In this document: one piece after another, positions 8,344 to 26,206 of the stretch
How positions within the stretch are numbered: the first letter of the stretch is position 1
Layout of the letters: the number at the start of each line of letters is the position of its first letter
Source: a virus
Length of the DNA stretch: 26,255 nucleotides
Strand: one strand, 5' to 3'
IMG/VR virus record: IMGVR_UViG_3300050821_000629
Location: 1-26,255 of that record
Position numbers and translations under genes: made by a program
Notes under the pieces: generated by a model
Database searches by the model: none
Seen by the model: only the letters and a program-made list of their open reading frames with translations
What the model was told of the DNA's origin: nothing

Positions 8344-8351
8344 TATTTACT
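8344..8351 (-). promoter_or_regulatory. Late-like promoter for the ParB-like gene
   Basis: Minus strand reads AGTAAATA, between the terminator at 8358-8379 and the ATG at 8327. Confidence 0.45.
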
Positions 8352-8357
8352 AAAAGA

Positions 8358-8379
8358 AAAAGCACCCGAAGGTGCTTTT
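8358..8379 (-). terminator. Terminator with UUCG loop after the fibre-like gene
   Basis: 9-bp stem AAAAGCACC with its complement around CGAA on the plus strand, so the minus-strand RNA has a C(UUCG)G tetraloop, followed by a U run. It lies 13 bp after the stop at 8393. Confidence 0.9.
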
Positions 8380-8392
8380 GTTTTACTATAAA

Positions 8393-9910: not shown

Positions 9911-10477
9911 TTATGTGTTATTTTTAAAAACTTTATCTTTCATAAAAGCGCCATACGTTTCTACAGAACAAGCATAATATTCACCATGAATATAAATTTC
10001 GTTTCCTGACATTAACGCAGCAACAAAGTTTGTCCCATTAAATCCATATTTTGATACTAAGCTCGGATCATCCCCTTGAATCTCAGAAAATGCTAAATCT
10101 CTTATACGTTTTGCCCAAGTAAACGCAAATCCATTGATAGGGAAAATTAAATATGTTAGGCCATAGCCGCCGGCGAAAGAACTACTCGAAGTGCAAAAAA
10201 TAGAATTAGACCTAAGCGCAGTAAATCCAGAATGTTTTAATAAGAAATCAATACTTCTCTGTGACCTTTCTGATGTGTCAAGAGTATTTCTATTCTCCCT
10301 CGACTTACCGTGAAATGCAGAATGTTGTGCATATTTGACTCCCCTGTATAGAAACTTTTTCGTTGCTTTCATGGCTGAAAGTGCTTCAGAACAATTTTGT
10401 TCTACTAATGAATAAAAGTTTTCGAAATTTTGCTCAATTTCTACTTTCTCACCTGCTTCAATTTCATAAATTTTCAT
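9911..10477 (-). CDS. ADP-ribosyltransferase-like protein, paralog 3
   Basis: A 188-aa paralog with N-terminus MKIYEIEAGEK. Conserved blocks: CSEALSAM (29-36), LYRG (R45), HGKSRENRNT (56-65), GFTALRSNSIFCTSS (84-98), TYLIFPINGFAFTWA (108-122) and ALMSGNEIYIHGEYYAC (154-170, E160). The W-S-P of most paralogs is W-A-K here. It is the last of three tandem paralogs and ends the operon that begins at 15426; no hairpin follows its stop. Same R-S-E fold inference and same GxE variation as the others. An injected effector acting on a host protein or nucleic acid is the favoured but unproven reading. Confidence 0.65.
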   Translation of the reverse strand: MKIYEIEAGEKVEIEQNFENFYSLVEQNCSEALSAMKATKKFLYRGVKYAQHSAFHGKSRENRNTLDTSERSQRSIDFLLKHSGFTALRSNSIFCTSSSSFAGGYGLTYLIFPINGFAFTWAKRIRDLAFSEIQGDDPSLVSKYGFNGTNFVAALMSGNEIYIHGEYYACSVETYGAFMKDKVFKNNT

Positions 10478-11483
10478 GATTAAAGTCTACGACCAATTGA
10501 GTTACCTGGCTCAGGATCTGGTAAAAGAAAATATTTTAGGTAGTTCTGATTGACAGCATAAAACTCCCCACGAATCAGTATTTCATTTTTGGACCTCAAT
10601 GCTTCTTCAAAATGTGTATTATCAAATCTAATTTGACTGAAATAATATTTCAAATAATCATCAAATCTCACTTTATTTAAATCTGTATATTGTTTAGCAA
10701 AATTAGATGGAAAAGCTTTATGACGCCAAGATTGGATAACATTATTAGTTAAATCTTTAACATCAGGACTCCAGGTAAACTCAAATCCATTCTTAGGAAA
10801 TATCATATACAACTCCCCATATTGTTTTGCATCTGATTGACTTGTGGTGCAAAAAATAGAATTTGATCGCAATGCAGTCATACCTGCGTCTCTTAAATAT
10901 GCATCATATTTTTCTTGAGTTTCTAATTTTACATCCACTGGTTTCCTATCTTCTCTTGGTTTTCCTAAGAAAATATTTAAACTTGGCTTTAGCTTGAAAA
11001 AACGAGCTATAGAGTTACCCAATAACATTCCTCTGTACAATATTTGTGATATATTTTCCATGGCGGTATATGCATCTGAACATTCAGTTTTTATTTTCAT
11101 CGCCAGTTCTTTTAAATTTTCGGGCTTTATGTTTATCTTTTCACCTGCTTCAATTTCGTATATCTTCATGGCATATATTTTATAATTGCGTCTTCATACT
11201 TGTCTGATGAACAAGCATAGTATTCACCGTGAATCATAATTTCATTTCCACTCTTTAAGGCTGCATCAAAATTTGTATTTTTGTAATTAAATTCACCCAC
11301 GATATCAACTGCTGATAGATTAGATAAATCACCCGGGCTAATTTCTCGTTTACCCAACTCAATAAACAAATCTCCTACATCTGGGCTCCAAGTAAATGAA
11401 AATCCGTTCTTAGGAAAAATTATGAATGGTTTTCCGTATGAAGCTGCATCTACACCTTCTGTTGTGCAAAAAATAGAATTTGA
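10191..11483 (-). repeat. Near-identical DNA block within tandem ART-like paralogs
   Basis: The plus-strand words GTGCAAAAAATAGAATT (10191-10207) and GTGCAAAAAATAGAATTTGA (10847-10866 and 11464-11483) are identical over 17-20 bases in the three tandem genes. A close copy lies at 16106-16125 in paralog 7. They encode the conserved NSIFCT segment. Nearby codons differ freely, so this is a short conserved island rather than a whole-gene repeat. Confidence 0.7.
10480..11169 (-). CDS. ADP-ribosyltransferase-like protein, paralog 4
   Basis: A 229-aa paralog, N-terminus MKIYEIEAGEK. Blocks: CSDAYTAM (30-37), LYRG (R46), an insertion of about 12 residues before LGKPREDRKP (68-77), MTALRSNSIFCTTS (97-110), YMIFPKNGFEFTWSPDVKDL (121-140), a second insertion (about 150-185) and ALRSKNEILIRGEFYA (190-205, E196). 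Here the residue two before the Glu is Lys, not Gly. It is two bases from the next paralog and overlaps the previous one by ATGA, so the three are one translational unit. The extra loops near the presumed active site suggest a different target from its sisters; this is inference. Confidence 0.65.
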   Translation of the reverse strand: MKIYEIEAGEKINIKPENLKELAMKIKTECSDAYTAMENISQILYRGMLLGNSIARFFKLKPSLNIFLGKPREDRKPVDVKLETQEKYDAYLRDAGMTALRSNSIFCTTSQSDAKQYGELYMIFPKNGFEFTWSPDVKDLTNNVIQSWRHKAFPSNFAKQYTDLNKVRFDDYLKYYFSQIRFDNTHFEEALRSKNEILIRGEFYAVNQNYLKYFLLPDPEPGNSIGRRL

Positions 11484-11756
11484 ACGCAACGCAGTGAATC
11501 CTGTTTTCGCTAAAGCATTATCAATGTATGTCTGTAATTTAGGATTAGATGTAAGAGTTCTTCTATTTTCTCTTGGCATACTATGAAACATATTAGTGCC
11601 GACAGCACTCGCCACACCTCTATATAATAAGGTATAATTTCTGTGATATGCTTCCCATGCATCGCTGCATTCTGTTCTGACAATTTTAATGAAGGATGCA
11701 ATTCTATTTTTTGCTACATCAGCTCTCTCGCCTGGTGCTATTTCGTAAATTTTCAT
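11166..11756 (-). CDS. ADP-ribosyltransferase-like protein, paralog 5
   Basis: A 196-aa paralog, N-terminus MKIYEIAPGE. Blocks: CSDAWEAY (30-37), LYRG (R46), HSMPRENRRT (58-67), GFTALRSNSIFCTTE (86-100), FIIFPKNGFSFTWSPDVGDL (111-130) and ALKSGNEIMIHGEYYAC (166-182, E172). The Ser ending the S-T-T-S motif in its sisters is Glu here. Its start lies 3 bp after the stop of the homing-endonuclease gene, so the endonuclease gene is inserted immediately upstream. GGAAATAATTT precedes the ATG. Fold and role inferred as for the other paralogs. Confidence 0.65.
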   Translation of the reverse strand: MKIYEIAPGERADVAKNRIASFIKIVRTECSDAWEAYHRNYTLLYRGVASAVGTNMFHSMPRENRRTLTSNPKLQTYIDNALAKTGFTALRSNSIFCTTEGVDAASYGKPFIIFPKNGFSFTWSPDVGDLFIELGKREISPGDLSNLSAVDIVGEFNYKNTNFDAALKSGNEIMIHGEYYACSSDKYEDAIIKYMP

Positions 11757-11759
11757 AAA

Positions 11760-12656
11760 TTATTTCCATACTGAAACTACATTGTATCCTAATTCTTTCA
11801 ATCGTATTTCTCTCATAAGAGTTTCGATGTATCTATCTCCTGCTGATTTTCCTCGTATGATTACATCTGGGTCGCAGTGTTTGTTTGTAGGATGCCCATG
11901 CCAATATTTCCCGTGATATTCATATACAGTGTTAGTAGATGGATCGTAACCGTCGGCCTTAACTTTATTTCCTGTGGGTAAAATAATTGTGTGTTGATTT
12001 ACAATATTGGGATTATTAAATGATTTAATCCATTGTTGTTCTGCGCTGCTTGTGGCTCCACCCCCACAGATTGGACATCCACAACCGCACAAATGGTCCG
12101 TTGCAGTTTGTTCAAATTCTTTGTGTTTAGGGCATACAATTATTACTTTCTCAAACGCACCTTTGTATTCAACTTTAGAATAATCATATTTGTTTCCGTG
12201 TCTGATTTTTGCTTTTTTGACAAAATCTTCTATAGGCGGCATTAGTTTATTTTTCGTGCGTTCTATACCACATTTCTTACAACCTCTACCCGTCAAGTGC
12301 GCATTAGGTGATTGCTCAAATATATCGTGAATCGGGCAAACAATTTTTACATGAGTTCTGTGATTTACATAATTAACAAATGAATAATCGTATTTGTCAC
12401 CGTGAATTTCTTTAGCTTTTTCAAGAAATTGTTCTTTGGTCATTTTTCTTTTGTCATGGCATATAGTATTTCCACATTCCGTACAGCCATGCTTACTGAT
12501 TAAATGATTCTCAGGTGCTTGTTTAAATTTTCCGTGTATAGGACAAACTATAATCACTTGAGTCTTGATGTTGATATATTCAACAAATGAATAATCAAAC
12601 TTTTCCCCATGTGCTTGTTTAGATTTTTCTATAAATTTAATAAAATTTTCGTTCAT
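11760..12656 (-). CDS. Homing-endonuclease-like protein: three zinc repeats plus Vsr-like nuclease
   Basis: A 298-aa protein. Three repeats of about 65 residues each run F-x-x-x-(A/S)-K-x-x-HG-x-K-x-DYS-x-V-x-Y ... V-x-I-V-CP-x-H-x-x-F-x-Q ... HL ... GC-x-x-CG. Their zinc-ligand sets are C38/H41/C58/C61, C107/H110/C126/C129 and C175/H178/C194/C197 (DUF723-like). The C-terminal domain (residues 205-298) has KADGYDP, VYEYHGKYWHGHP and RLKELGYNVVSVW, resembling the Vsr/EDxHD endonuclease fold of I-Bth0305I-type homing enzymes. Such freestanding genes cut sites in relatives lacking them and spread by repair. It sits between the KxDG protein and the tandem ART-like genes and disturbs neither frame. 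A repair or restriction role is less likely. Confidence 0.8.
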   Translation of the reverse strand: MNENFIKFIEKSKQAHGEKFDYSFVEYINIKTQVIIVCPIHGKFKQAPENHLISKHGCTECGNTICHDKRKMTKEQFLEKAKEIHGDKYDYSFVNYVNHRTHVKIVCPIHDIFEQSPNAHLTGRGCKKCGIERTKNKLMPPIEDFVKKAKIRHGNKYDYSKVEYKGAFEKVIIVCPKHKEFEQTATDHLCGCGCPICGGGATSSAEQQWIKSFNNPNIVNQHTIILPTGNKVKADGYDPSTNTVYEYHGKYWHGHPTNKHCDPDVIIRGKSAGDRYIETLMREIRLKELGYNVVSVWK

Positions 12657-12674: not shown

Positions 12675-13952
12675 TCAGTGGCCATGGGCAAGGCTATTAT
12701 TTTTTGAGAACTCAAGCCTATCCACAAGTTTTATTACATCTCCGGAATTCCCAACACAGACGAATCCCTCTGGGGTGGTTACACGGTAACTGCCATCATC
12801 CATCTTTAAGAAAGCGCCAACAGTGCCGATCTTTTGCAATTTTCTGATAATACCTAATTTCATTTCAATCAATGTCTTATAGATTTCTAGCACTCTAGTA
12901 AATGTATTGATGTTCTGAATAATAAATTCTTTCAAATCTTTAATCTTCTTAAGACGATTTTGTGCAGCTTTGCTTTCTGCTCCGCCAGTCAAATCCCCTA
13001 GACCAGTCATCATTTTGTCTTCGAAAAATTTCAAATAATCATTGATGAATTTAGAAGAATCATCAACTAGAACTCCTTGTCTAACTCTAGCATTAATGAA
13101 TACTTGAATCGTCTTAGAAATATCAGGATGCTTAATCACTTTATTAAAGTTTGCTTCCCCAATCAATGATGCTAGACGTTGAATACTAGACAAATCTTTC
13201 TTGAACTCATTATCTTCTTCTGGCGTTAGTGATGCAATACCAGTCAAGTCTTTAAACGATGCATCATCAAACCAAATATCTAAATTCGGGTGTAACATTG
13301 CAATAGCTTCTGATACTGCAGGACCATGTGATGCAGCCATTGTTTGAACGCTTGTGCCCTCATATACTGTATGAAAGATAATGCCGAACTTAGCTTTCAT
13401 AATTCTCTTGCCTAATTCAGAATTCATTTCAACTGCATACGCAATTGTATTAGGCTTGAACATAACGTATTGTTTGCTATCGATTTCTTCACTATAAAGA
13501 TCATTCTTCGCAAACATCAAATCGCCTTGCATGATGCCAGTCATACCAATCTTAGATAGATATTTGTGTGCAGCCTTGAGCTTCATTGCAAGTTCTGGTT
13601 GTTCGCCATAATACTTCTTTAAATCTGCTGTGCTTTTAATTAGCTTTGGTTCTTTACTTAATGCTGCTTTAGTTCCAACAAAGAATTGTCCATCCATCGG
13701 ATCTATACCGCAAATAATTGATGGCGAGCCGTCCCACTTAGTTGTAATGTTTTTCTTTGCAACCCCCATACCTTGTTCTAGATTAGCACGAACTAAATCT
13801 AAAAATTGAATTGCAATATCAACGCCTTCGAAACCATAATCAAATACTGTATCCTCGAGGTGAGCTAGATGACTAAGGCGGTGTGGTTTTTCACTTTTCA
13901 CAGCTTCCATCAATTTTTGTTGATGCATCTTCTTAATATCGTTGAATTTCAT
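12675..13952 (-). CDS. Phage protein with KxDG nucleotidyltransferase-like motif (DUF6267-like)
   Basis: A 425-aa protein starting MKFNDIKKMH, a variant of the local N-terminal signature. Residues 66-95 (KKNITTKWDGSPSIICG, then FFVGTK) contain K72-W-D-G75, like motif I of ATP-dependent DNA/RNA ligases and capping enzymes, where the Lys carries AMP or GMP. MTGIMQGDLMFAKN (137-150) sits where ligase motif III would be, and KAKFGIIFH (186-194) could be motif V. The rest is helical with a basic middle. It resembles unnamed T4-like phage proteins that I associate with DUF6267. It overlaps the divergent ART-like gene by ATGA. Function unknown; a covalent nucleotidyltransferase is a testable guess. 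Confidence 0.65.
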   Translation of the reverse strand: MKFNDIKKMHQQKLMEAVKSEKPHRLSHLAHLEDTVFDYGFEGVDIAIQFLDLVRANLEQGMGVAKKNITTKWDGSPSIICGIDPMDGQFFVGTKAALSKEPKLIKSTADLKKYYGEQPELAMKLKAAHKYLSKIGMTGIMQGDLMFAKNDLYSEEIDSKQYVMFKPNTIAYAVEMNSELGKRIMKAKFGIIFHTVYEGTSVQTMAASHGPAVSEAIAMLHPNLDIWFDDASFKDLTGIASLTPEEDNEFKKDLSSIQRLASLIGEANFNKVIKHPDISKTIQVFINARVRQGVLVDDSSKFINDYLKFFEDKMMTGLGDLTGGAESKAAQNRLKKIKDLKEFIIQNINTFTRVLEIYKTLIEMKLGIIRKLQKIGTVGAFLKMDDGSYRVTTPEGFVCVGNSGDVIKLVDRLEFSKNNSLAHGH

Positions 13953-14824
13953 TTAAATTTACCTTGTTTAATTAGATGGTCTAATGCATCTTTATTTGCT
14001 ATAACGCAGCGCCCTGAGAACCAACATTCTCGTCCAGTTCCGCCATACAATTCAGATCCTGCTTTTCCTGAAACGGATAAGCTTGCAATTTGATTGGGAG
14101 TTACTATAGAAAAATTATTAAGAACCGGATCTAACACACGTTCCATATATTGTCCAACACTCGTATTTTTACTAAATTGATCAATACTATAGTATGAGGC
14201 TTCTTCGTGGGTGTTTAGAACAGATATCGGTTGTTTTAAGAAAGCAGGAATAAATTTATCTAATTTGTTCCCTTCAAAATCCCAATATCTTGCATCTGCA
14301 TCTATTAAATTTTGTTTTTTTGCCCAATCAATCATTCTGTTTTGCATGAATGAAGCGAAATCTCCCAATGACCCAAGATGAGATTCCTCAAATGATTCCC
14401 ACATGTCAAACGATGGGCAAACTCCAATCTTAGTTCCGTTTTCTGGGAACACACAGAACAGTGTCCCATATCCACCAGCATACTTAGTTGATGTTGAACA
14501 TATTAATGCTCTATCTCTAGGTGGAAATTGTTTCCAAGCTTGCGATACTTTTGATGTAAAGAATGTATAGATGTTATTTGTATTTTGTGATCTACGTGCG
14601 ATTTGTGAGGAATCAATTGCATAGAAATTATCCTCAAATTTATTGCCGGCTGACCAATTGTTAAAACCTTTAAACAGTGATTTGCCTGTCTTAACATAAG
14701 CATTCAATGCATCAGAACAATGTGTTTCAGCGATAGCAATCGCCTTGGGTATATCTATAACTTTTGTATATTCTGCTGCTTTCTTTGGATCAAGAATTGC
14801 TTCTGCGATTTCATAAAATCTCAT
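13949..14824 (-). CDS. Divergent ADP-ribosyltransferase-like protein, paralog 6
   Basis: A 291-aa distant family member, N-terminus MRFYEIAEA. CSDALNAY (36-43) and LFKG (50-53) align with the family helix and LYRG, but the key Arg is Lys (K52). ALICSTSTKYAGGYGTLFCVFPENG (106-130) matches the S-T-S block and the following strand, without the W-S-P. The C-terminal GRECWFSGRCVIA (264-276, E266) aligns with N-E-I-x-I-x-G-x-Y-Y-A. About 90 extra residues are inserted between them. Arg to Lys at the first catalytic position may mean altered or lost NAD chemistry. It overlaps its upstream neighbour by TAATG. The relationship is clear from motif order, but its activity is uncertain. Confidence 0.6.
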   Translation of the reverse strand: MRFYEIAEAILDPKKAAEYTKVIDIPKAIAIAETHCSDALNAYVKTGKSLFKGFNNWSAGNKFEDNFYAIDSSQIARRSQNTNNIYTFFTSKVSQAWKQFPPRDRALICSTSTKYAGGYGTLFCVFPENGTKIGVCPSFDMWESFEESHLGSLGDFASFMQNRMIDWAKKQNLIDADARYWDFEGNKLDKFIPAFLKQPISVLNTHEEASYYSIDQFSKNTSVGQYMERVLDPVLNNFSIVTPNQIASLSVSGKAGSELYGGTGRECWFSGRCVIANKDALDHLIKQGKFK

Positions 14825-15426
14825 TACACCACCCTTTGAGTATTAGTCGCCTTCTTATATTGATCTTCTAAGTATTGAATCGACTTTGGATTAGTGACTA
14901 ATTGTCCTTTCTCATTGGTCCAACCTTGTTGTGTTCTACTATATGTCCCACCATTGACTTTAATCTGACTACCAACAGGCGTTGCTGATGGATTGACTTG
15001 GTGTGGCATATTTTGTTGTTGTGTTGTGCCAGCTAATGTATTAGGTGTAGCAGTATTCGATACGTGTTGATCTGGGCGCCCAGTATTAAGATTTACTTCG
15101 GCTAATTTACGACCAACAAGTTGTTTAACAAATTGTTTAATATTTCCTGCATTAACTTTAGTCGCATCTACGTTGTAACCATTTCCATCAAGATTAGTTT
15201 TAAAAAATTTAGTTGCCCAAGCTCCAATTTGCTTCGAATATTCAGCTGGGTCACGTAGATTTACTTGACCTTGTTGCAAACGTTGCAAATGGGCTTTCAA
15301 TACTTGTAAAGTTTTACCTGTAACGGCTACAGTTCTATTTTGTTCAGCATTTCGAAAAGGTCTGACTGCTGCGTTGCCAATATTTCGGGCAGTGTTCATC
15401 GGATTCCAAAATTCATCTAATCGCAT
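14824..15426 (-). CDS. Phage protein with MRLDEF N-terminus, possible packaged protein
   Basis: A 200-aa basic protein. The N-terminus MRLDEFWNP fits the local signature. Residues 40-110 are helical (KTLQVLKAHLQRLQQGQVNL, IKQFVKQLVGRKLAEVNL). Residues 112-150 are a Thr/Asn/Gln/Pro linker, and the C-terminus (GSQIKVNGGTYSRTQQGWTNEKGQLV) looks like a small WW-like or beta-hairpin module found in some phage virion proteins. First gene of the operon running to 9911. A late-like promoter lies 21 bp before the ATG. No recognised function. Confidence 0.6.
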   Translation of the reverse strand: MRLDEFWNPMNTARNIGNAAVRPFRNAEQNRTVAVTGKTLQVLKAHLQRLQQGQVNLRDPAEYSKQIGAWATKFFKTNLDGNGYNVDATKVNAGNIKQFVKQLVGRKLAEVNLNTGRPDQHVSNTATPNTLAGTTQQQNMPHQVNPSATPVGSQIKVNGGTYSRTQQGWTNEKGQLVTNPKSIQYLEDQYKKATNTQRVV

Positions 15427-15446
15427 AATTTATACTCAATATCTTA

Positions 15447-15454
15447 TATTTATG
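15447..15454 (-). promoter_or_regulatory. Late promoter for the 15426-9911 operon
   Basis: Minus strand reads CATAAATA, one mismatch from TATAAATA, 21 bp upstream of the ATG at 15426. It follows the terminator at 15474-15498. Confidence 0.6.
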
Positions 15455-15473
15455 AATTGCAGCTTACAAAAGA

Positions 15474-15498
15474 AAAAGCCCTGAAATTCAGGGCTTTT
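15474..15498 (-). terminator. Terminator after the small membrane protein
   Basis: 11-bp stem AAAAGCCCTGA with its complement and a 3-nt loop, then a run of T on the minus strand; 22 bp after the stop at 15520. Confidence 0.85.
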
Positions 15499-15519
15499 AT
15501 GATTAAACTTTGATTTTTA

Positions 15520-15711
15520 TTATCCGTAAATACCTTTTGCACACGCCCAAGCAATGAATGCAACAAACAAAATCAATGCTGCTGTTGCGATATACGCAAG
15601 AGGTGCAAATGAGAACATGTCGAGGAAAACTTCATAGCAAAATATTGCGCCTATCATCCAAAGTTTTATGACGAGTCCCAATAGAAATCCAATTGCTTGT
15701 AACAACGGCAT
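15520..15711 (-). CDS. Small two-helix membrane protein
   Basis: A 63-aa protein with two hydrophobic segments: residues 4-25 (LQAIGFLLGLVIKLWMIGAIFC) and 33-58 (FSFAPLAYIATAALILFVAFIA), with only three charged residues before the C-terminal KGIYG. AGAGGTGG precedes the ATG at good spacing. It forms a one-gene unit with its own sigma70-like promoter and terminator, inserted between late ART-like genes, so it is probably expressed early. It could be a superinfection-exclusion, lysis-control or host-membrane protein; none of these is shown by sequence. Confidence 0.65.
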   Translation of the reverse strand: MPLLQAIGFLLGLVIKLWMIGAIFCYEVFLDMFSFAPLAYIATAALILFVAFIAWACAKGIYG

Positions 15712-15738
15712 GATACCACCTCTTTTTTCAGTAATTAC

Positions 15739-15767
15739 ATTATACTAAAATAAAGCAATTTGGGCAA
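15739..15767 (-). promoter_or_regulatory. Sigma70-like promoter for the small membrane protein
   Basis: Minus strand TTGCCC, 17-bp spacer, TATAAT (15744-15739), 28 bp before the start codon. The -10 region shares TTATTTTAGTATAAT with the nrdB promoter. Confidence 0.7.
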
Positions 15768-15773
15768 CCAGAC

Positions 15774-15791
15774 TGTTGTATTTTTACAACA
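15774..15791 (-). other. Short hairpin after paralog 7
   Basis: TGTTGTA, TTTT, TACAACA: a 7-bp AT-rich inverted repeat 11 bp after the stop at 15802. There is no U run on the minus strand, so it is a weak terminator at best. Confidence 0.3.
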
Positions 15792-15801
15792 TAAGTTTAG
15801 T

Positions 15802-16431
15802 TTAATAAAATAATGTGCTGAATGCATGTATAAAGTCTGCTCTATAAAATGCATAGTATTCACCAGTAATCATAATTTCATGACCAGACGCAAGTGCTTG
15901 CGTAAAATTATCACTAAATCCATGTTCATCTGCAAAAGATGAGGATTGTGTGTCAATTTTGAAATTATTCATTTCATCTCTATTGGCTTCTGAAACAAAA
16001 TCAGTAAAAAAGTCATCATATTTAATATTATATGTGCATTTAAATCCATCAAAAGGAAAAATCATATAAACCTTTCCATACATTGATGCTGTTATAGCCC
16101 TACTTGCGCAAAAAATTGAATTTGATCTTAGTGCAGTAAATCCACTTTTTAATAATCCTGTATCTAATAAATTACTAATTTCTTCGCTAGTGTCCGTTGG
16201 CCTGCGATCTATTCTAGATTTACCGTGTAATGCATAAGGATGTTCTCCCTTGATTCCTCTAAAACAATAGTTCTTCGCAGCCTTCATTGCTGCAACAGCG
16301 TCACTACAATTTGCTAAAATTAATTGTTTGTATTGTTCTATTTCATGCTCTTCAGGTGGTGCATTATATCCACTAGATGTATCCTGTCGAAATGATTGTT
16401 TCTCACCTGCTTCAATTTCATTTATCCTCAT
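15802..16431 (-). CDS. ADP-ribosyltransferase-like protein, paralog 7
   Basis: A 209-aa paralog, N-terminus MRINEIEAGEK. Blocks: a longer Gln/Glu/Pro linker (12-32), CSDAVAAM (42-49), CFRG (R58), HGKSRIDRRP (69-78), GFTALRSNSIFCAS (97-110), YMIFPFDGFKCTY (122-134, in place of F-T-W-S-P), and ALASGHEIMITGEYYAF (179-195, E185). It is separated from the other paralogs by the sigma70-driven membrane gene. It overlaps the small helical gene upstream by 14 bp and shares its late promoter at 16707. Same fold inference; loss of the W-S-P block marks it as one of the more diverged copies. Confidence 0.65.
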   Translation of the reverse strand: MRINEIEAGEKQSFRQDTSSGYNAPPEEHEIEQYKQLILANCSDAVAAMKAAKNYCFRGIKGEHPYALHGKSRIDRRPTDTSEEISNLLDTGLLKSGFTALRSNSIFCASRAITASMYGKVYMIFPFDGFKCTYNIKYDDFFTDFVSEANRDEMNNFKIDTQSSSFADEHGFSDNFTQALASGHEIMITGEYYAFYRADFIHAFSTLFY

Positions 16432-16687
16432 TCTTACTCTCTTTGACGCGCTGAATACCTCTACTGAATTTGACTGGTGCTTGATTTTTTATACTATTCA
16501 ACAATCTGCTTTCCAAATCTCGTGCAGTTTCTTCGTCATACGATTCACGAATCAAATTTACGAGATTTATTGCAGACTGAATAATATTGTTCGCCCTGGA
16601 TTCAATAAGATTTTCACGATCCTTATTAAAGCGTGCTGAATGAAGGCTATTCAATTCTTCAAGAATCGATTTTGGTTTCTGTGACAA
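16418..16687 (-). CDS. Small conserved helical phage protein
   Basis: An 89-aa, fully helical, charged protein. The block ESRANNIIQSAINLVNLI, then RESYDEETARDLESRLLNSIK and KFSRGIQRV, resembles short proteins found near replication and head genes of aquatic T4-like phages. The start is TTG at 16687, supported by GGAG eight bases upstream and a late-like box before that; there is no in-frame ATG. It is co-transcribed with paralog 7. Function unknown. Confidence 0.6.
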   Translation of the reverse strand: MSQKPKSILEELNSLHSARFNKDRENLIESRANNIIQSAINLVNLIRESYDEETARDLESRLLNSIKNQAPVKFSRGIQRVKESKNEDK

Positions 16688-16706
16688 GGGGCGGCTCCGA
16701 TTATAG

Positions 16707-16714
16707 TATTTATT
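16707..16714 (-). promoter_or_regulatory. Late promoter for the 16687-15802 pair
   Basis: Minus strand reads AATAAATA, one mismatch from consensus, 20 bp before the TTG start at 16687; it touches the stop codon of the helicase gene. Confidence 0.5.
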
Positions 16715-18179
16715 ACTTCTCTGACTTCAATCCATCTAACATAGATTTTAGCTTATTGCTTTGTATTTTTCCAGAAGATCGTCCAGCAATAGCTTCATCT
16801 GCTACCTTAAATGGATCTATTCCATTCTTGGGTCGTGGAGTAACATCAGCAGAATTAGTTATTGGTTGTGATGCACCATTGCCCCTCTTAACTTGATCTA
16901 GAATACTACTAATAGATGGCCTGCTAGATTCACTGTCATCAACATCAAAGAAACGCAATGATTCAATGTTAAATCCCAAATCAATTTTTTGACCCACTGA
17001 CCCACTATTACGAGTTTTTAAAAACTGCATGCAATACCTGCCCCGTTCTCTCATTGAATTGCTAGTGAATAATGCGAATGCGTTATCTGCTGTATAAATC
17101 TTAGAAATACCACCTGCGATGTTATCATGACCGAATTCAGTTTCATCAACGCCGCTGCGATTAAACTGGCATGCTGTTAATAACAATACATTTAGTTCAT
17201 TAGACAAATTTCTCAATTCCTCTGCAACATATTTGTCTTTAACGAATAAGTCGGATGGATTCACTTTAATACTAATCGGCATCATCAAATCAAGATAGTC
17301 AATAACTAGAAAATCAATAATCATACCTGTCTGAATTTGTAACTCTTTCAAATATGTCTTAATATGATTTACATTGCTTTGTGCTGGCAAGAATTTAACT
17401 TGTAACTTACCAGCTTTCTTTCCCGCCATCTTTACTTTTAATTCAACATCATCAATTTCTTTGAAGATGTTTTTCATTGGCATGTCAGTAATCATACCAT
17501 CCATACGCATACAACAAAGTTCTTCTTTCAATTCTAGAGTAATATAAACACCATTCAATCCCGTCTTAGACCAATTAACTGCCATGTTCTGCATGAACAA
17601 ACTTTTACCACCGCCAGAGTTTGCAACTACAATATTCAATTCTTTACGATTCATACCGCCATATAACTTTTCGTCTAGAGTCTTTAATCCTGTGCTAATC
17701 TGACCATTCGATTCTTTGAGTGACATTAGACGCTCTCTAGGATTTTCGTAATAGTCCGTTCCCAAATTTCTTGTCAATCCAATTTGCACTGCATCTTTGA
17801 TTAGCTTTTCAATTGGATCAAAGTTACCTTTACCTTCGCTTGATAATTTTTCAAGCAAATCAGCAGATTTAAGAATAGCTCTTTCTAATGATTTTTGTTT
17901 GGTGAATTTTTCAAATTCATCCAACGCCCACTCTTTCTTTGATTCGATGTTTTCAATTTGAGTTGATGATAATTCAAGTCCTGTAATCGATTTCAATTGT
18001 TCAATGTCAGGCAATGATCTATACTGATCTGCATATACCTGAATAAATTCTGCCGATTCTCTTAATGTTCTATCGAAATTTTCTGCACTGTATATTGAAG
18101 ATACTCTGCTATACAATTGTGGATCTTGCAGTAAGAACCTGATCATCATTTTCTGAAAATTTATACCATATTCATTCAT
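16713..18179 (-). CDS. 41: Replicative DNA helicase, DnaB family (gp41-like)
   Basis: A 488-aa hexameric helicase that unwinds the fork and works with the primase encoded just upstream. Residues 1-130 are the helical N-terminal domain. The RecA-like core begins with ISTGLKTLDEKLYGGM (161-176), then Walker A ANSGGGKS (186-193), the E-L-K segment of ITLELKEE, and Walker B FLVIDYLDLM. The sensor motif LLLTACQFNRSG and arginine-bearing LKTRNSG follow. The C-terminal 70 residues are a Ser/Pro/Lys-rich tail. Length and motif order match T4 gp41. Its start overlaps the primase stop by 8 bp, so the two are translated together. Confidence 0.93.
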   Translation of the reverse strand: MNEYGINFQKMMIRFLLQDPQLYSRVSSIYSAENFDRTLRESAEFIQVYADQYRSLPDIEQLKSITGLELSSTQIENIESKKEWALDEFEKFTKQKSLERAILKSADLLEKLSSEGKGNFDPIEKLIKDAVQIGLTRNLGTDYYENPRERLMSLKESNGQISTGLKTLDEKLYGGMNRKELNIVVANSGGGKSLFMQNMAVNWSKTGLNGVYITLELKEELCCMRMDGMITDMPMKNIFKEIDDVELKVKMAGKKAGKLQVKFLPAQSNVNHIKTYLKELQIQTGMIIDFLVIDYLDLMMPISIKVNPSDLFVKDKYVAEELRNLSNELNVLLLTACQFNRSGVDETEFGHDNIAGGISKIYTADNAFALFTSNSMRERGRYCMQFLKTRNSGSVGQKIDLGFNIESLRFFDVDDSESSRPSISSILDQVKRGNGASQPITNSADVTPRPKNGIDPFKVADEAIAGRSSGKIQSNKLKSMLDGLKSEK

Positions 18180-19203
18180 TTATTTTTATCCTTTTCTTCA
18201 TAAATTTTTTTGCCAGAAGCTCTATCTTAATTTTGTTATGCACTACTGAATTAAAAATTGTTTCTAGCACAAATAATTTACCTAAATCATGAACTGCATC
18301 ATTAATATCCTTAAAATCTTCTCCCCATACAGGGAAACTCACTCCCCAACCATTCTTCATAGCATCATTAACTAATCCCATTCCAGTTTCATTAAAATCT
18401 GGCACTACTATTATTTCTTTGTTTAAACTTTCAATGATATTTGCTTGATCATCATTAATTTCACCATGCAATACTGCAACAGCATCTATTGTCATAGCAT
18501 CAAATAAACCTTCACAAACAATCACATGGTTACTTTTTCGTTTAATTTGTTCATCTAAATTATAAACATATCCCTTAGGTGTATTTTTGATAAATTGCTT
18601 TTTATCAATTGCTCTAGATGACCAACCAACGAGATTATTGTGATAATAGAATGGAACAATAACGTGTCTGCTTAGTTTCCAATCATTATGTTTGTTTGGA
18701 GACCACATCAAATCATATTTTTCTAGATTGATATGTCTGTTATATGCGTAAGTCATAACATCCAAAAAATCTTCATCTAAATTATTGCCTTCGATGATAT
18801 AAGAAAACTTTTCTGTTCCTCTAGGCATTTCAATCGTAGGGAATGATGTTGGGACAGGTAAAGTTTGCCGTTCGACAAGCTCATACTCACCATTTGCTTT
18901 TAATTCAAGAGCATCGAATTGCAATACATCAACTTGATCTTGGGGTATTCCAAACCATTTCAGAAGATTTTTAAATCGTAATGACAGTGGTCTGCCAGGC
19001 ACCCAATTTGTAGTATAGGAACAATTAAAACAATGCCAGGCGCATGTTCCATCGCCCTCAAATAAAAATCCGCCGCGGCCCCGCTTATCCAGAGTTTCAT
19101 TATTATGAATGCAACATGGTGCATTGCAAGTCTTCCAACCATTCGAAGTTGGTTTCAAGCTAACGTGAGATTGAATGAAAGATTGTAAAAAGAAAGCGTT
19201 CAT
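18172..19203 (-). CDS. 61: DNA primase (gp61-like)
   Basis: A 343-aa primase that lays RNA primers for the lagging strand with the gp41-type helicase. The N-terminal zinc ribbon is visible: C26, C30, C31 and H33 region (CNAPCCIH), then W-H-C-FNC near residues 55-60. The toprim domain carries VIVCEGLFDAM (the motif Glu), IIVVPDFNETGMGL, and DINDAVHDLG. The usual D-x-D reads D-F-N, so the second Asp is replaced. There is no SD sequence; the ATG at 19203 lies inside a 12-bp inverted repeat and 9 bp after a sigma70-like -10 box. The family call is strong. Confidence 0.9.
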   Translation of the reverse strand: MNAFFLQSFIQSHVSLKPTSNGWKTCNAPCCIHNNETLDKRGRGGFLFEGDGTCAWHCFNCSYTTNWVPGRPLSLRFKNLLKWFGIPQDQVDVLQFDALELKANGEYELVERQTLPVPTSFPTIEMPRGTEKFSYIIEGNNLDEDFLDVMTYAYNRHINLEKYDLMWSPNKHNDWKLSRHVIVPFYYHNNLVGWSSRAIDKKQFIKNTPKGYVYNLDEQIKRKSNHVIVCEGLFDAMTIDAVAVLHGEINDDQANIIESLNKEIIVVPDFNETGMGLVNDAMKNGWGVSFPVWGEDFKDINDAVHDLGKLFVLETIFNSVVHNKIKIELLAKKFMKKRIKINE

Positions 19204-19227
19204 AGTAAGAGATTATACTATGAACGC
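19196..19227. promoter_or_regulatory. 12-bp perfect inverted repeat over the primase start
   Basis: GCGTTCATAGTA at 19196-19207, an 8-bp spacer, and its exact complement at 19216-19227. The right arm overlaps the -10 box TATAAT (19217-19212, minus strand) and the left arm covers the primase start codon. It could be a protein-binding operator on DNA, or a hairpin hiding the start codon in longer transcripts reading through from 20190. Confidence 0.6.
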
Positions 19228-19241
19228 ACATTGAAAAACAA
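19212..19241 (-). promoter_or_regulatory. Sigma70-like promoter for primase-helicase
   Basis: Minus strand TTGTTT, 18-bp spacer, TATAAT at 19217-19212. A start about seven bases downstream would leave only a few bases of leader before the ATG at 19203. Confidence 0.5.
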
Positions 19242-19245
19242 GTTA

Positions 19246-20190
19246 TTAGGAGCGATACAAAATCTTAGTCACCAAGCCATTATATACAATATATTGCCCA
19301 GCTGAAATAACATAAGTAACAGCAGATGGGACAGAATATAGTGTATAACCGCTGTTGTTGGTGATTGCGAATCTAACGAAATTGTATTGCCCAGTAAATG
19401 AAATAATATCTGGAGTAGTTTGGTTTGTGTAATTAGTAGTCACAATATTAAACCAACTCACATTGGATGGTGTTGCAACTGACACATCCAATGAACCTTG
19501 AACTGTAACTGAACCAGTGAAGTTCTGAAAATAATATTGCGCAGAATGCAATCCACTTACGTTATTATTGCTTGGCATATCAGCAGACATTGCATCACTG
19601 ATTGCATTAATGGGATTCAGTGCTGCGATATTGAAAATAGAGAACGGATCATCAGTTGAACCATTTGTAGAACCTACAGTATTTGCAGAAAACACAGCCA
19701 TTGCACTTGGTCTGAACGATGGATATGAACCATCTTCTAACTCTAGTTGTCCTCTTACTTGATAATCTTCGGTTGCATACGCAACTACATTATTTCCATT
19801 GTTATCAATTGCGGATACTGAGAAATTATAAAAATTCTTTTCTAGCGCTTCTAATACATTTGCTGGGATAACAGCGGTAATAATTCCATTGATTGGATCA
19901 ACTACTGTGCATTGAATTACAACAGAAACTTGGGCATTATCTGCTTGACTTGGATTAGGAAATCCTTGAAAGTCACTAACAATATAGAATGTAAATGAAT
20001 ATCCGGTTATATTGACAGGCTTTTGATCATTGTTTTTGATTAGAAGCTTGATCGTATTGTCAATTCCTTTATAAAGTCTAATTGGTCGTGAATAATTCAT
20101 TCTGTTTATCCTGTTGATGGTAGGATCCTCAACAATCTGAATGATTGCTTGTCCTTGATTTTTAAAAAAGTATCTGATAGCGGTTTGCAT
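19246..20190 (-). CDS. Beta-rich phage protein, probable virion component
   Basis: Up to 314 aa. Residues 31-150 (MNYSRPIRLYKGIDNTIKLL, NNDQKPVNITGYSFTFYIV, GIITAVIPANVLEALEKNFYNFSVSA) form an immunoglobulin-like or baseplate-like beta domain. Residues 190-314 (FTGSVTVQGSLDVSVATPSN, ITNNSGYTLYSVPSAVTYVI) are a second beta domain. No membrane segment or enzyme motif. The start is uncertain: the ATG at 20190 has no SD and sits at the expected transcript start of the late box at 20196. The ATG at 20100 has AGGA eight bases before it and would give 284 aa. The upstream segment (YFFKNQGQAIIQIVEDPTIN) does look like real protein. A single-gene late unit; function not recognised. Confidence 0.6.
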   Translation of the reverse strand: MQTAIRYFFKNQGQAIIQIVEDPTINRINRMNYSRPIRLYKGIDNTIKLLIKNNDQKPVNITGYSFTFYIVSDFQGFPNPSQADNAQVSVVIQCTVVDPINGIITAVIPANVLEALEKNFYNFSVSAIDNNGNNVVAYATEDYQVRGQLELEDGSYPSFRPSAMAVFSANTVGSTNGSTDDPFSIFNIAALNPINAISDAMSADMPSNNNVSGLHSAQYYFQNFTGSVTVQGSLDVSVATPSNVSWFNIVTTNYTNQTTPDIISFTGQYNFVRFAITNNSGYTLYSVPSAVTYVISAGQYIVYNGLVTKILYRS

Positions 20191-21872: not shown

Positions 21873-22331
21873 TCATTTGAAGAAGGCTTTGATATCTTTT
21901 TCCTGCCAACCGAGTTCGCGGGCATGTTCTTTACATTCTTGCTCACTGTTAATTGTTGCGAGGAGGCCAATTTCATCATCCTTAAGATTTGGGTTAATGT
22001 GTTGAAAGAATTTAACTACTTTGTTATTAGAAGACTTCTCTTTCTTTTTTGCAGCTATCCATTGATGAAACTGCACCCCTATTCCAGGGCTTGCTGTTGT
22101 GCATACTAACCATTGTAGCTTAGGATGTTTATTTAGGTCCCAAAAATGCACATTCACTCGTTTATTTGCTGCTATAAGATAATACGCTTCTAAATCTGTT
22201 TCTCCTTTAACAGAAGAAACATATCTGAGCATTACATATCCACTAAATTTCTTTTTGTCTTCATCACTTAAATTATCGTAGAATTTTAAATTCTTGCGAT
22301 CTAATGCTGTTAGTTCGTCTTTAAGAGCCAT
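21873..22331 (-). CDS. Conserved phage replication-cluster protein
   Basis: A 152-aa basic helical protein: MALKDELTALDRKNLKFYDN, LSDEDKKKFSGYVMLRYVSS, YYLIAANKRVNVHFWDLNKH, PKLQWLVCTTASPGIGVQFH, then a Lys-rich segment and C-terminal LGWQEKDIKAFFK. It resembles small proteins found beside replication genes in aquatic T4-like phages, some annotated as clamp-loader small subunit (gp62), but I see no proof of that identity and the gp44/gp45/gp43 genes are not adjacent. Its start overlaps the last SH3-like gene by 11 bp. Function open. Confidence 0.6.
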   Translation of the reverse strand: MALKDELTALDRKNLKFYDNLSDEDKKKFSGYVMLRYVSSVKGETDLEAYYLIAANKRVNVHFWDLNKHPKLQWLVCTTASPGIGVQFHQWIAAKKKEKSSNNKVVKFFQHINPNLKDDEIGLLATINSEQECKEHARELGWQEKDIKAFFK

Positions 22332-22656
22332 ATTGTTCGTTAAGTTTTAATAAGCCAATTAATCGTTCTTGTTCGCTATCGAATACATATACTTCAATTG
22401 CGCACATTACTTCTAAACTATGCTTTGATGCCATCATATTCAATTTCTCAGGCACATCTGTAGCATCATATTCTAACACATATTTGCAATCGTCCCATAT
22501 AATCCAGGCTGGTTTTCTTCCCCATTCATCAATTATTGGTCCGCCGATATGTGCTATAAATCCGCAAACAAGAGACTGAACTGATTTATGTTGGTACGGT
22601 TTTCGCCAAATAATATACTTGCCTTGAGCAGCGTTATCTTCTCTGAGTTTATCCAT
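22321..22656 (-). CDS. SH3-like mini-paralog 4
   Basis: A 111-aa protein, the longest of four tandem relatives. ATG 22656 is preferred over the TTG just upstream and overlaps the previous gene by 8 bp. A beta-rich body (GKYIIWRKPYQH, HIGGPIID, PAWIIWDDCKYVLEY) is followed by an inserted segment and the family tail VFDSEQERLIGLLKLNE. The tail and the central W-D aromatic strand tie it to the genes at 22649, 22870 and 23136. Probably a small barrel protein that binds RNA, DNA or protein; function unknown. Confidence 0.55.
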   Translation of the reverse strand: MDKLREDNAAQGKYIIWRKPYQHKSVQSLVCGFIAHIGGPIIDEWGRKPAWIIWDDCKYVLEYDATDVPEKLNMMASKHSLEVMCAIEVYVFDSEQERLIGLLKLNEQYGS

Positions 22657-22873
22657 CAAGTTTTAATATGGTTGCTAATGCTTCTTTTTCGTCTTTTACA
22701 ACATAGATCCAATCGTAAGTAAAATAATTTACATCAACTCTGCTTGACACACCGACGTCCCAATCAATCATAACGTAATTAACTTCATTTGGGAGCAATC
22801 GTATTGTTCCAGTCGCTGCTACATATTTGCTTCTATGTGTCATCAACACTTTATAACCATCTTGTAATTTCAT
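22649..22873 (-). CDS. SH3-like mini-paralog 3
   Basis: A 74-aa protein. MKLQDGYKVLMTHRSKYVAATGTIRLLP resembles the first strands of a KOW/SH3 barrel, followed by YVMIDWDVGVSSRVDV and the shared tail VVKDEKEALATILKLDG. The ATG overlaps the stop of its upstream relative by ATGA. It is too small to be an enzyme. Small basic-aromatic barrels of this kind often bind nucleic acid; unproven here. Confidence 0.6.
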   Translation of the reverse strand: MKLQDGYKVLMTHRSKYVAATGTIRLLPNEVNYVMIDWDVGVSSRVDVNYFTYDWIYVVKDEKEALATILKLDG

Positions 22874-23139
22874 GATAGTTTCATTATTAATGCCAATTTT
22901 TCTTGCTCAGTATTTACGACCGTACTAGTAGACCACCATCCATCAGATGTAGAGAATGGTAGAAGCGCAGTTATACCATCATCCCAATGAATCATTACTC
23001 CCGGGCGTGGTATTCCAGATATCTGTTTTCCAATCCTACCACTGCGTATTCTCTTAGTGCCAGGGTTTGCGGTCCAATGTAAGCTACCCGACGCTACGAT
23101 ATATTGCCCAGGTTTTAATTGTTTGGGATCTGTTATCAT
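22870..23139 (-). CDS. SH3-like mini-paralog 2
   Basis: An 89-aa protein: ITDPKQLKPGQYIVASGSLH, a basic segment (GTKRIRSGRIGKQISG), RPGVMIHWDDGITALL and the tail VVNTEQEKLALIMKLS. The order G-Q-Y-I-V-A-S-G, W-D-D-G and the E-Q-E-x-L-x-x-I-x-K-L ending match its neighbours. ATGA overlap with the upstream stop. Likely a small barrel with a basic loop; role unknown. Confidence 0.6.
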   Translation of the reverse strand: MITDPKQLKPGQYIVASGSLHWTANPGTKRIRSGRIGKQISGIPRPGVMIHWDDGITALLPFSTSDGWWSTSTVVNTEQEKLALIMKLS

Positions 23140-23372
23140 TTTAATTTCAATATAATTCCTAGTGCTTCTTGTTCAGTTTTTGCTACTTTATTATAAGGGT
23201 TGTCAATAAAATATGAATACCTGTGCTGGGTGGGATAAGAGAGGTGTTCCCATTTTACCATGATATATGATTGTTGATCTTGTTCTGGGCTTCCAATGAC
23301 TAATGTAATTACACCTCTATAAAATCTCTCAGCCTTACCTGAGATTACTATCTGGCCTTTCTCTAATAACAT
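23136..23372 (-). CDS. SH3-like mini-paralog 1
   Basis: A 78-aa protein. ATG 23372 is chosen because it forms TAATG with the preceding stop; a GTG two codons upstream is less likely. LEKGQIVISGKAERFYRGVI is followed by YIMVKWEHLSYPT and the tail KVAKTEQEALGIILKLK. First of the four tandem relatives after the conserved protein at 23372-23872. The same barrel inference applies. Confidence 0.6.
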   Translation of the reverse strand: MLLEKGQIVISGKAERFYRGVITLVIGSPEQDQQSYIMVKWEHLSYPTQHRYSYFIDNPYNKVAKTEQEALGIILKLK

Positions 23373-23872
23373 TACCACACCAATGAATAATTTATAATTT
23401 CTGATGCCTTAGTAATGTCCTTAACGAAAAAAGCACACATGGGTTCTGGACCATTCGTTAGTGGAACTGCAAGTATTTGCCCAGATCGCAGCTTAGGAAA
23501 ATACCACCGAACATCTTGATAGATATCAACTATATCGACGGATTTAAATTCAGGTCTAAATGCGGTTCGTGGATTAAACGTATAAGCAGAAAAGCCCCGA
23601 TCATTGATCGAGGTTAAAGGGACAACTTCTAGATCACCAAAATCTGGTTCTCCAATTACTATACTCCAATCCACAGGCATTTTAATTTCATTGTCACCAA
23701 TTCGTAGAACGAGGGCTGGACTATTGAAGCTTTCTAAGAAAATTAATGGTATTGCAAAATAATCTGGATTCTTTGGTTCGCTATTGTCTAGCACCCAAAA
23801 ACTTAAATCTTCTGTTTCGTCAGGGATTTCAGTCAGTTCATACGAAAAATTGTTAAGCGTGAGAATTCTCAT
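23372..23872 (-). CDS. Conserved T4-like phage protein, unknown function
   Basis: A 166-aa protein beginning MRILTLNNFSYELTEIPDET. Central blocks FAIPLIFLESFNSPALVLRI, MPVDWSIVIGEPDFGDLEVV and PLTSINDRGFSAYTFNP, then YQDVRWYFPKLRSGQILAVPL and GPEPMCAFFVKDITKASEII, give it the look of a highly conserved phage protein; the family has no function I know. No membrane segment. It is the first gene of the operon ending at 20619, behind a sigma70-like promoter, so it is likely made early or middle. SD is weak (GAGTAA, nine bases before ATG). Confidence 0.7.
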   Translation of the reverse strand: MRILTLNNFSYELTEIPDETEDLSFWVLDNSEPKNPDYFAIPLIFLESFNSPALVLRIGDNEIKMPVDWSIVIGEPDFGDLEVVPLTSINDRGFSAYTFNPRTAFRPEFKSVDIVDIYQDVRWYFPKLRSGQILAVPLTNGPEPMCAFFVKDITKASEIINYSLVW

Positions 23873-23895: not shown

Positions 23896-23924
23896 AGTAT
23901 AACAAATTGAAATAATTAAATCAA
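23896..23924 (-). promoter_or_regulatory. Sigma70-like promoter for the 23872-20619 operon
   Basis: Minus strand TTGATT, 17-bp spacer, TATACT (23901-23896), 24 bp before the ATG at 23872. Its -35 box overlaps the stop codon of the GIY-YIG-like gene. Confidence 0.65.
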
Positions 23925-24289
23925 CCATAGAAGAAATTTTCATCGTCATCCAATGAACAATATTTGTCAATATGTTCTTCATTCGGAACAAATGTTCCTG
24001 TGCGATGATACACAGTAATACCTGCATCGTTGAGTTTTTTTATTTCTTCCAACTCAATTTGTTCTATTTTGTCAGGTGAATCTTCTATTAGAGTCTCTAC
24101 AAGAAAATTTTCGGCGCCAAACTTTTTTATAGCGACCATTATTTTCAAGCATGGATTGTTAGTTTTTGCACTTCTAAAATCTTTAGAGTATTCAACTAAT
24201 TCATCCCATCTTTCTTGAGCCGAATTCTGTGCGATACCAATACATATTGCACCATTCGTTGTATTTGTTAATTTATAAACTACACTCAT
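23921..24289 (-). CDS. Degenerate GIY-YIG-like protein
   Basis: A 122-aa protein; ATG 24289 overlaps the helicase stop by ATGA and is preferred to a GTG three codons upstream. VVYKLTNTTNGAICIGIAQNSAQERWDEL (3-31) follows the GIY-YIG pattern, with the first motif reading V-V-Y and the second C-I-G. The conserved Arg is present (ERW). Then LKIMVAIKKFGAENFLVETL and a Glu in IEQIELEEIKKLN match the later part of the domain. Known members are homing endonucleases and repair nucleases. Loss of both signature glycine/tyrosine positions suggests reduced or altered activity. It lies directly behind the UvsW-type helicase, so it might have arrived as a mobile nuclease and decayed; inference. Confidence 0.7.
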   Translation of the reverse strand: MSVVYKLTNTTNGAICIGIAQNSAQERWDELVEYSKDFRSAKTNNPCLKIMVAIKKFGAENFLVETLIEDSPDKIEQIELEEIKKLNDAGITVYHRTGTFVPNEEHIDKYCSLDDDENFFYG

Positions 24290-25746
24290 TCTTGCCACTC
24301 CATTTTAGTAATTTGAAAGGGATATTCTGATTCCTTGTAAAACTTTTTTCTTGCAGTTAAATGGCGCTTACTGAATTTCATAGTAGAACAAACATCGTAA
24401 ATTTCTGCATGGTCTTTACCAAATCCCTTGCGCAATGCTCGACCAATACTTTGAATTACTCGGACAAAACTTTTTCCCGCCTCTAACAACATTAAATTAT
24501 CTAGCTTAGTGATGTTGATACCTGTCGATGCTACACCATACGTAGCAATAGTAATAGAATTAGTTGCGAAGTTGATTTCTGAATAATGTTCTTTACGTTT
24601 GTCAGCCTTAATATCACCATTGATAAAAATAGATCCAGGCAAGATAGACTCTAAGTATTCACCAGTCGCTTTTCTATCAACAAGTATCAAAGTATTGCCT
24701 GTTTTTGCAATTTCTATAATCTTTTTTGCTAAGAAATCAAGTCTTTTTTCAGTAGTAACAAGATACTTCAACTCACTCGCATAGTCTTTATATTCTACAT
24801 AATCTTGTAATTGCCAAACATTAACATTGCAACTTGACAATACCCCTATGTCTTGTAATTCGTGTGCTTGTAGCTCTCCGACAACTGGACCAATTGAGAT
24901 TAGTAATGCTGCTGCTGCATATTCCTCTTTTGGAATAGTTCCAGTTAAACCCCAGCGAATAGGGATCATTGCAAACGCACTTGTGAGTAAGCTTTTTAAT
25001 TCATCGCCCTTGATTCCGTGGGCTTCGTCAATGATAATCGATACAACTCCATCAATGAACTCATGTATGTCGATTGCCGCCTCTCCGGCTTTCGTTTTTT
25101 TGAATAACGAAGATAGACTCTGCCAAGTGCAGATAGTATGAGTTTTATCATATTCTTTTCGATCACCATAAAATACACCGCAATCTAATCCTATGTTTTT
25201 ATAATCTTCTTCAGTTTGTAGAACTAAGCTCTTGTTCGGAACAACAATGATTGTCCTACCATATTTTTCACATTGATAGCTCATGGCAGCACAAGTAATT
25301 GTTTTGCCTGCGCCAGTTGCGGCAACTTGAATACTTTGTTGGTTATTGAAGAATTGATTTACAATCTCAACCTGGTAATCGCGTAACATGATCGGCTCAC
25401 CTTCAGCTGGATGTCCTTTGGGCCACACTTTATGAGAGAAAAGGGTTTCATCGATCGGTTCTAGCTCAAACACACGATCATAGTCTCTATTATCGACTAA
25501 TTCAATATCATAGCCATCATCTTCTAGTATTGGAAGAATAACTGGCAACAGATTAATATAAGATGCTCCCCCAACTGTAAAATACGCAACCTTGCCGTCC
25601 CAACGTCCCAACTTATATGCTGGTGTGTGAATCGCGTATGGTAAAACATACGACAATAAATTCGTCAGTTTGCGCCGTGTTGAGGCTTCTAATCCGTGAA
25701 TCTTAAGATTCACTTCATCCTTAATTTCTAATATACATGATTTCAT
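24286..25746 (-). CDS. uvsW: SF2 DNA helicase (UvsW-like)
   Basis: A 486-aa helicase if started at ATG 25746 (MKSCILEIKDEVN); a TTG at 25791 would add 15 residues, and neither has an SD. The N-terminal domain contains YKLGRWDGKVAYF, as in UvsW relatives that bind branched DNA. The ATPase core has a Q-like motif (MLRDYQ), Walker A ATGAGKT, PNKSLVLQTE, DEAH, GLTGTIP, then ATYGVASTGIN and the arginine-finger motif VIQSIGRALRKG. In T4 UvsW unwinds recombination and origin intermediates and shifts replication to the recombination mode. The overlap with the GIY-YIG-like gene puts them in one transcript. Confidence 0.9.
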   Translation of the reverse strand: MKSCILEIKDEVNLKIHGLEASTRRKLTNLLSYVLPYAIHTPAYKLGRWDGKVAYFTVGGASYINLLPVILPILEDDGYDIELVDNRDYDRVFELEPIDETLFSHKVWPKGHPAEGEPIMLRDYQVEIVNQFFNNQQSIQVAATGAGKTITCAAMSYQCEKYGRTIIVVPNKSLVLQTEEDYKNIGLDCGVFYGDRKEYDKTHTICTWQSLSSLFKKTKAGEAAIDIHEFIDGVVSIIIDEAHGIKGDELKSLLTSAFAMIPIRWGLTGTIPKEEYAAAALLISIGPVVGELQAHELQDIGVLSSCNVNVWQLQDYVEYKDYASELKYLVTTEKRLDFLAKKIIEIAKTGNTLILVDRKATGEYLESILPGSIFINGDIKADKRKEHYSEINFATNSITIATYGVASTGINITKLDNLMLLEAGKSFVRVIQSIGRALRKGFGKDHAEIYDVCSTMKFSKRHLTARKKFYKESEYPFQITKMEWQE

Positions 25747-25799
25747 ATAGTTATGTATTCGTTTATGATTACACACTATATAGAAATCCAACCACTAAA

Positions 25800-26129
25800 T
25801 CAAGTTGTTTTGCCCCAACACTTAACTAAACGAGAATATCTGTATTTAAATTGATGACTTTGCTCAATTGTATATCGCCCTAAATCAAATGGACCATCTA
25901 AACACACTAATGCATAATAGAAAGCTGTTCGTGGTGTTTTGCTTATCGCTCTCTCACCTTGTTCCCATTTACCTTTAACTACTTCTTTAGCAAAGTAATA
26001 TGCTGTTTCTGGTAGTGCAGCAATTTGATTCAATTGTGTCTGCTTGAGTGGGACTCCAGGAATGATCGGGTAACTAAAATTTATCAATGATTCTAAGTAA
26101 TTCATTTGTTCGCTGTTTAAACTATACAT
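25800..26129 (-). CDS. Small protein with two A-Y-x-x-A repeat units
   Basis: A 109-aa protein. Two repeats of about 27 residues are visible: LPETAYYFAKEVVKGKWEQG and TPRTAFYYALVCLDGPFDLG, each followed by E/R-x-x-I. This resembles short helical repeats of phage and mobile-element proteins in which P-x-x-A-x-x-Y-A-x-x-V-x-x-G-R-W-x-x-G recurs. AGGAAAAATT precedes the ATG. It stands alone between the terminator at 26176 and the helicase gene 53 bp downstream. Function unknown. Confidence 0.65.
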   Translation of the reverse strand: MYSLNSEQMNYLESLINFSYPIIPGVPLKQTQLNQIAALPETAYYFAKEVVKGKWEQGERAISKTPRTAFYYALVCLDGPFDLGRYTIEQSHQFKYRYSRLVKCWGKTT

Positions 26130-26175: not shown

Positions 26176-26206
26176 AAAGAAAAGCGCTCCAAGAGCGCTT
26201 TTCTTT
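26176..26206 (-). terminator. Strong terminator
   Basis: A 14-bp perfect stem (AAAGAAAAGCGCTC with its complement) and a 3-nt loop, with U-rich end on the minus strand; 15 bp after the partial gene's stop at 26221. Confidence 0.9.

Follow-up and report, generated by a model that had tools for sequence, protein, structure and literature searches.

The window, a virus record of 26,255 bases, carries in its right part a run of minus-strand genes that includes four tandem mini-genes, named here m1 to m4. One small accessory family has probably been expanded here in tandem, in a lineage-specific manner, within a cargo slot of a jumbo-phage replication operon. The jumbo phage of which the window forms a part belongs to the PA5oct/Atu_ph07/Phosso group, and tblastn searches with its 166-aa and 222-aa proteins located it near PA5oct, Atu_ph07, Phosso, Salicola SCTP-2 and the Munch/CBB/GAP32 group. 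The order of the genes, in the direction of their reading, is as follows:

24286-25791, minus strand: UvsW-like helicase (ResIII, E 8.2e-20; phrog_16 DNA helicase, E 2.5e-67)
23921-24289, minus strand: GIY-YIG nuclease-like ORF (phrog_7168 homing endonuclease, E 5.8e-09), between the helicase and phrog_11279 genes
23896-23924, minus strand: sigma70-like promoter site with extended -10, upstream of phrog_11279-m1-m2-m3-m4
23372-23872, minus strand: 166-aa phrog_11279 protein (E 3.9e-45), left border of the slot, upstream of m1
23136-23372, minus strand: m1, ORF of 78 aa, putative SH3-like mini-protein
22870-23139, minus strand: m2, ORF of 89 aa, SH3-like mini-protein, modelled with AF2
22649-22873, minus strand: m3, ORF of 74 aa, putative SH3-like mini-protein, the best conserved of the four
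22321-22656, minus strand: m4, ORF of 111 aa with its ATG at 22656, modelled with AF2
21873-22331, minus strand: 152-aa phrog_11758 protein (E 8.9e-27), right border of the slot, downstream of m4
beyond the phrog_11758 gene, minus strand: 222-aa phrog_11058 protein with a zinc-finger-like start
after the phrog_11058 gene, minus strand: 212-aa polymerase-type protein

The 152-aa phrog_11758 protein was also considered as a counterpart of the T4 clamp-loader small subunit, given its similar layout, but the candidate was rejected as no significant PDB or Pfam profile match was obtained. The UvsW-like helicase of the window is uninterrupted, unlike that of the related contig L007 (11-2808), which seems to be broken at its DEAH/DECH box by an intein-like insertion that includes an endonuclease-like ORF. 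A strong terminator-like hairpin of 14 pairs lies at 26176-26206, past the end (26129) of a 109-aa ORF at 25800-26129.

The end-to-end overlap of four tandem mini-genes, described in an earlier note on this DNA, was borne out in both the ORFs and their junctions. The start of m1 overlaps the stop of the upstream gene through TAATG, ATGA forms the overlap at both the m1-m2 and the m2-m3 junctions, m3 and m4 overlap by 8 bp, and m4 overlaps the next gene by 11 bp. Such overlapping stop and start codons on the same strand suggest one transcript and coupled translation, in such a way that m1 to m4 are probably co-transcribed and translationally coupled. The sigma70-like site, whose first hexamer starts at 23924 and whose second ends at 23896, had been taken as an operon promoter that hinted at early host-takeover proteins. 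The site is present, and it is kept in L007 in the same context (TATACT vs. TATAAT), but sites of this kind are no commoner in the region than in shuffled sequences (20 found, 24.4 expected), and it was not seen upstream of the phrog_11279 gene in relatives other than L007. As it precedes the conserved phrog_11279 gene and those that follow, it is uninformative regarding host takeover.

The relationship between the four proteins was studied by alignment and by a leave-one-out test, in which a profile built from the other groups was scored against 3000 shuffles. In the four-way alignment, residues G6, W41, V63, E67, E69, L71, K76 and L77 (m1 numbering) are invariant, and the common W-(D/E) strand and C-terminal tail proposed before are indeed found, with E-x-E-x-L...L present in all four aligned proteins. 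Scores of 29.9, 21.0 and 15.1 bits were obtained for m1, m2 and m3, respectively, which none of the 3000 shuffles reached, and a marginal score of 9.7 bits for m4 (3 of 3000 shuffles). When the tail was cut off, m1, m2 and m3 were still above chance, although weakly (0, 7 and 10 of 3000 shuffles), and m4 was not; pairwise Z-scores agreed with these results. Thus, of the proposal of one diverged family, the part concerning m1 to m3 holds beyond the tail, whereas the membership of m4 would rest on the tail, the predicted fold and its position, having in mind that its kinship outside the tail depends on a model whose alignment includes m1 to m3. Taken together, m1 to m4 probably descend from one ancestor, all encoding the same tiny binding domain. 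No significant sequence match for the minis was found in Pfam, PHROGs, NCBIfam, PADLOC or PDB.

In order to predict the fold, AF2 was run for m2 and m4 on an alignment of eight sequences, the same for both, so the two models are not independent. The model of m2 (pLDDT 80.9, pTM 0.73) shows five strands and a C-terminal helix at residues 78-88, and that of m4 (pLDDT 79.0, pTM 0.72) shows an SH3-like barrel, also with a C-terminal helix, and has the topology of m2 plus a helix (65-75) inserted between strands 3 and 4. In both predictions the barrel strands 1 to 5 follow the SH3 order, strand 5 is preceded by a short helical turn, and the helix comes at the end. The SH3-like fold suggested from the sequence is therefore backed by prediction for m2 and m4, with matches to Tudor and SH3 folds, and the different predicted folds that the earlier note had named as a counterargument did not arise for these two modelled proteins; m1 and m3 would fit the same barrel according to the alignment. 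The nearest solved folds (VIA-align) were TraI for m2 (Z 7.6) and Spindlin1 for m4 (Z 6.9), values below 8 that indicate the fold class and no function. The five-stranded barrel topology is common to SH3-like/Tudor small barrels such as the Spindlin Tudor repeats, the translocation-signal domain of TraI and ribosomal protein L19, but the minis have no significant sequence match to them, and such Z-scores may reflect a mere common arrangement. As for the Tudor/chromo readers, whose aromatic cage binds methyl-lysine or methyl-arginine, the resemblance seen is one of fold only. The viral fold matches were mostly uncharacterised proteins, and those of m2 included two predicted structures of DUF4314 phage proteins (E 0.010 and 0.067); these differ from the minis, which stand as four tandem copies and gave no match to the DUF4314 Pfam profile at E <= 1 with any of m1 to m4. 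Regarding the tail, it is common to the four as claimed, but the models of m2 and m4 make it a predicted helix that ends the domain, and not a loose separate signature peptide. Its start, T/S/D-E-x-E, reads as a helix-capping box, and the C-terminal helix, the best conserved part of the minis, most likely completes the domain and supplies the common sequence signature.

The spread of the family is narrow. It is known from three records, namely the window, L007 and L087, the last forming one contig with L088, and both the L007 and L087 contigs come from metagenome 3300050821. L007 is the nearest relative, with a phrog_11279 protein 88% identical to that of the window, and its three minis keep the gene order of the window and are orthologous to m2 (41% identity), m3 (73%) and m4 (52%), the ortholog of m1 being absent. 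The L087 contig has an m4 ortholog 97% identical, and as it starts in the m4 neighbourhood it says nothing about other copies. The family profile search and copy-number comparison put forward in the earlier note thus yielded four copies in the window and three in L007. Pattern scans of IMG/VR with m1, m2, m3, m4 or a joint profile detected L007, L087 and L088 only, and tblastn of m1 and m2 against 50,697 phage records produced chance matches only. No further copies turned up in five reference genomes, all complete, or in ten longer contigs, the one weak match (E 0.037) in that scan belonging to another small-protein family.

The 166-aa phrog_11279 protein has matches in 58 phage records, and the slot between it and the phrog_11758 gene was compared in 86 loci, among them 80 from viral records and 5 from reference phages. 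The 80 include many near-identical loci, so the counts are of records and not of independent events: minis were present in 2 of the 86 slots and no gene was found in 13, among them those of PA5oct, SCTP-2 and Munch. Most slots contained one gene of 74-111 aa with an IYKLS-type helix end plus a coiled-coil gene, ten had a 90-aa gene ending in DATLFEITY, and the L080 slot contained two tandem sets, one of five IYKLS-type and one of four FAW-type genes. The remaining occupants included a 2OG-Fe(II) oxygenase, a GDSL-like protein, an epimerase, a radical-SAM protein and a NUDIX protein. This varied content points to a place of optional genes, and repeatedly of tandem arrays of small families; it is a precise spot in the replication operon where small proteins are swapped or multiplied between fixed flanking genes, and a good place to seek optional replication helpers or host-directed inhibitors. 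Homology between the minis and the small IYKLS family that occupies this slot in relatives was considered and found unsupported (profile comparison probability 1.5%). The presence across relatives expected of a core replisome gene of the lineage was not observed (2 of 86 slots), and the minis may be replisome subunits in this one lineage.

According to the reading of a tandem expansion of an accessory family, a single ancestral gene encoding an SH3-like barrel with a C-terminal helix would have duplicated in tandem, the copies would have diverged and been retained by selection, and m1 would have been gained or lost after the split from L007. Each barrel could serve as a module that binds a protein or nucleic acid of its own while DNA is being replicated, in the role of an accessory factor or inhibitor that lies outside the core replisome. 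The comparison with relatives showed that m2, m3 and m4 are under purifying selection, with dN/dS of 0.04 for m4 against L087, about 0.11 for m3, and 0.27 for m2 against L007, values that argue for real, constrained genes.

A second possibility, which we regard as unlikely, is that the minis are host-directed or anti-defence inhibitors, each copy binding a host protein of its own, with an arms race as the cause of their multiplication. The exchangeable content of the slot and the narrow spread of the minis are in line with it, as is the faster evolution of m2 and m4 relative to their conserved neighbours when the window is set against L007 (dN of 0.54 and 0.40 vs. 0.09-0.18). Nevertheless, dN/dS was below 0.3 throughout, with no sign of positive selection at this distance and with synonymous sites near saturation, and the minis are embedded in a replication operon. 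No match appeared in a defence-system protein library, which omits most inhibitors, and the search found no relatives of the minis with a known host target.

Slightly less probable still is that the four barrels form a single complex by way of the common helix, perhaps an accessory factor for replication, the hetero-oligomer that the earlier note had suggested. The tandem overlap suggests balanced synthesis, the helix is where conservation is highest, and the genes are placed among replication genes; against this, L007 has three copies, none stands in the same slot across the wider group, and the members diverge unequally (41 to 73% identity to their orthologs). Copy number (four vs. three) and distribution, with most relatives devoid of minis, make an obligate four-subunit complex general to the group unlikely, and this part of the proposal is not sustained. 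A variant of it, in which tandem-duplicated barrels join by the conserved helix into a hetero-oligomeric accessory factor for the replication machinery of this phage, with a subunit number that varies between close relatives, has a low probability. Finally, the least credible of the readings takes the tail as a C-terminal docking motif common to several small-protein families, with the minis as one set of carriers, as 21 Phosso proteins have DAMLFKLTW-like ends (0.4 expected) and the slot occupant of L073-L084 bears such a tail, but the mini tails score from -9 to +5 bits against the FKLTW motif (m3 and m4 exceed shuffles slightly; for m1, m2 and k2 the signal is weak or absent) in comparison with 22 bits for L073, the profile comparison with the IYKLS family gave a probability of 1.5%, and the AF2 models make the tail a helix of the domain.

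Considered as a tandem expansion, the minis exemplify the duplication and divergence of tiny single-domain phage genes. Tandem sets of small, paralogous SH3-like genes are of a kind already known. This family matches no tested library, and our literature search on tandem SH3-like phage proteins found nothing specific. One jumbo-phage group encodes a small SH3-fold protein upstream of the DNA polymerase, e.g., AAL82950.1 (PMC7824862), likewise in a replication gene neighbourhood, but that protein belongs to another phage group and is likened by description, whereas the present genes form an optional tandem set. Bacillus phage G has about 35 zinc-ribbon copies, a lineage-specific expansion (PMC7824862). 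These zinc ribbons, the FKLTW-tailed proteins of Phosso and the IYKLS array of L080 resemble the minis in that one small protein has multiplied and diverged, in tandem for several of them, but they are other families, with no sign of an SH3-like barrel.

The 21 Phosso proteins (L095-L117) have different N-terminal parts and the common tail F-x-x-x-x-D-A-M-L-F-K-L-x-W, the expected 0.4 being derived from the internal rate, and seven of them are clustered, e.g., in L099 at 15355-19922. In L080, the two tandem families lie at positions 6511-8558: five genes of 60-86 aa that share the module 'KTNPGLTDLL...FYILG' at their C-terminus, together with four genes of the 'WFAWxPV' type. The window itself contains six to seven paralogues of 188-291 aa (phrog_11975/12810) at 3900-5143, 9911-11756, 15802-16431 and, more distantly, 13949-14824, which start with M(K/R)I(Y/N)E(I/F) and carry the motifs RG, N-S-I and S-G-N-E-I-x-I-x-G-E-Y. 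They may have an arrangement like that of ADP-ribosyltransferases, and their start could be a capsid-targeting sequence; relatives of these paralogues were found at seven places in Atu_ph07. The window (11760-12656) and L087 (3457-4401) encode endonuclease-like proteins that are related to each other and contain repeated 'HGDKYDYS...CPIH' modules, and their different placement in two close phages suggests a mobile gene.
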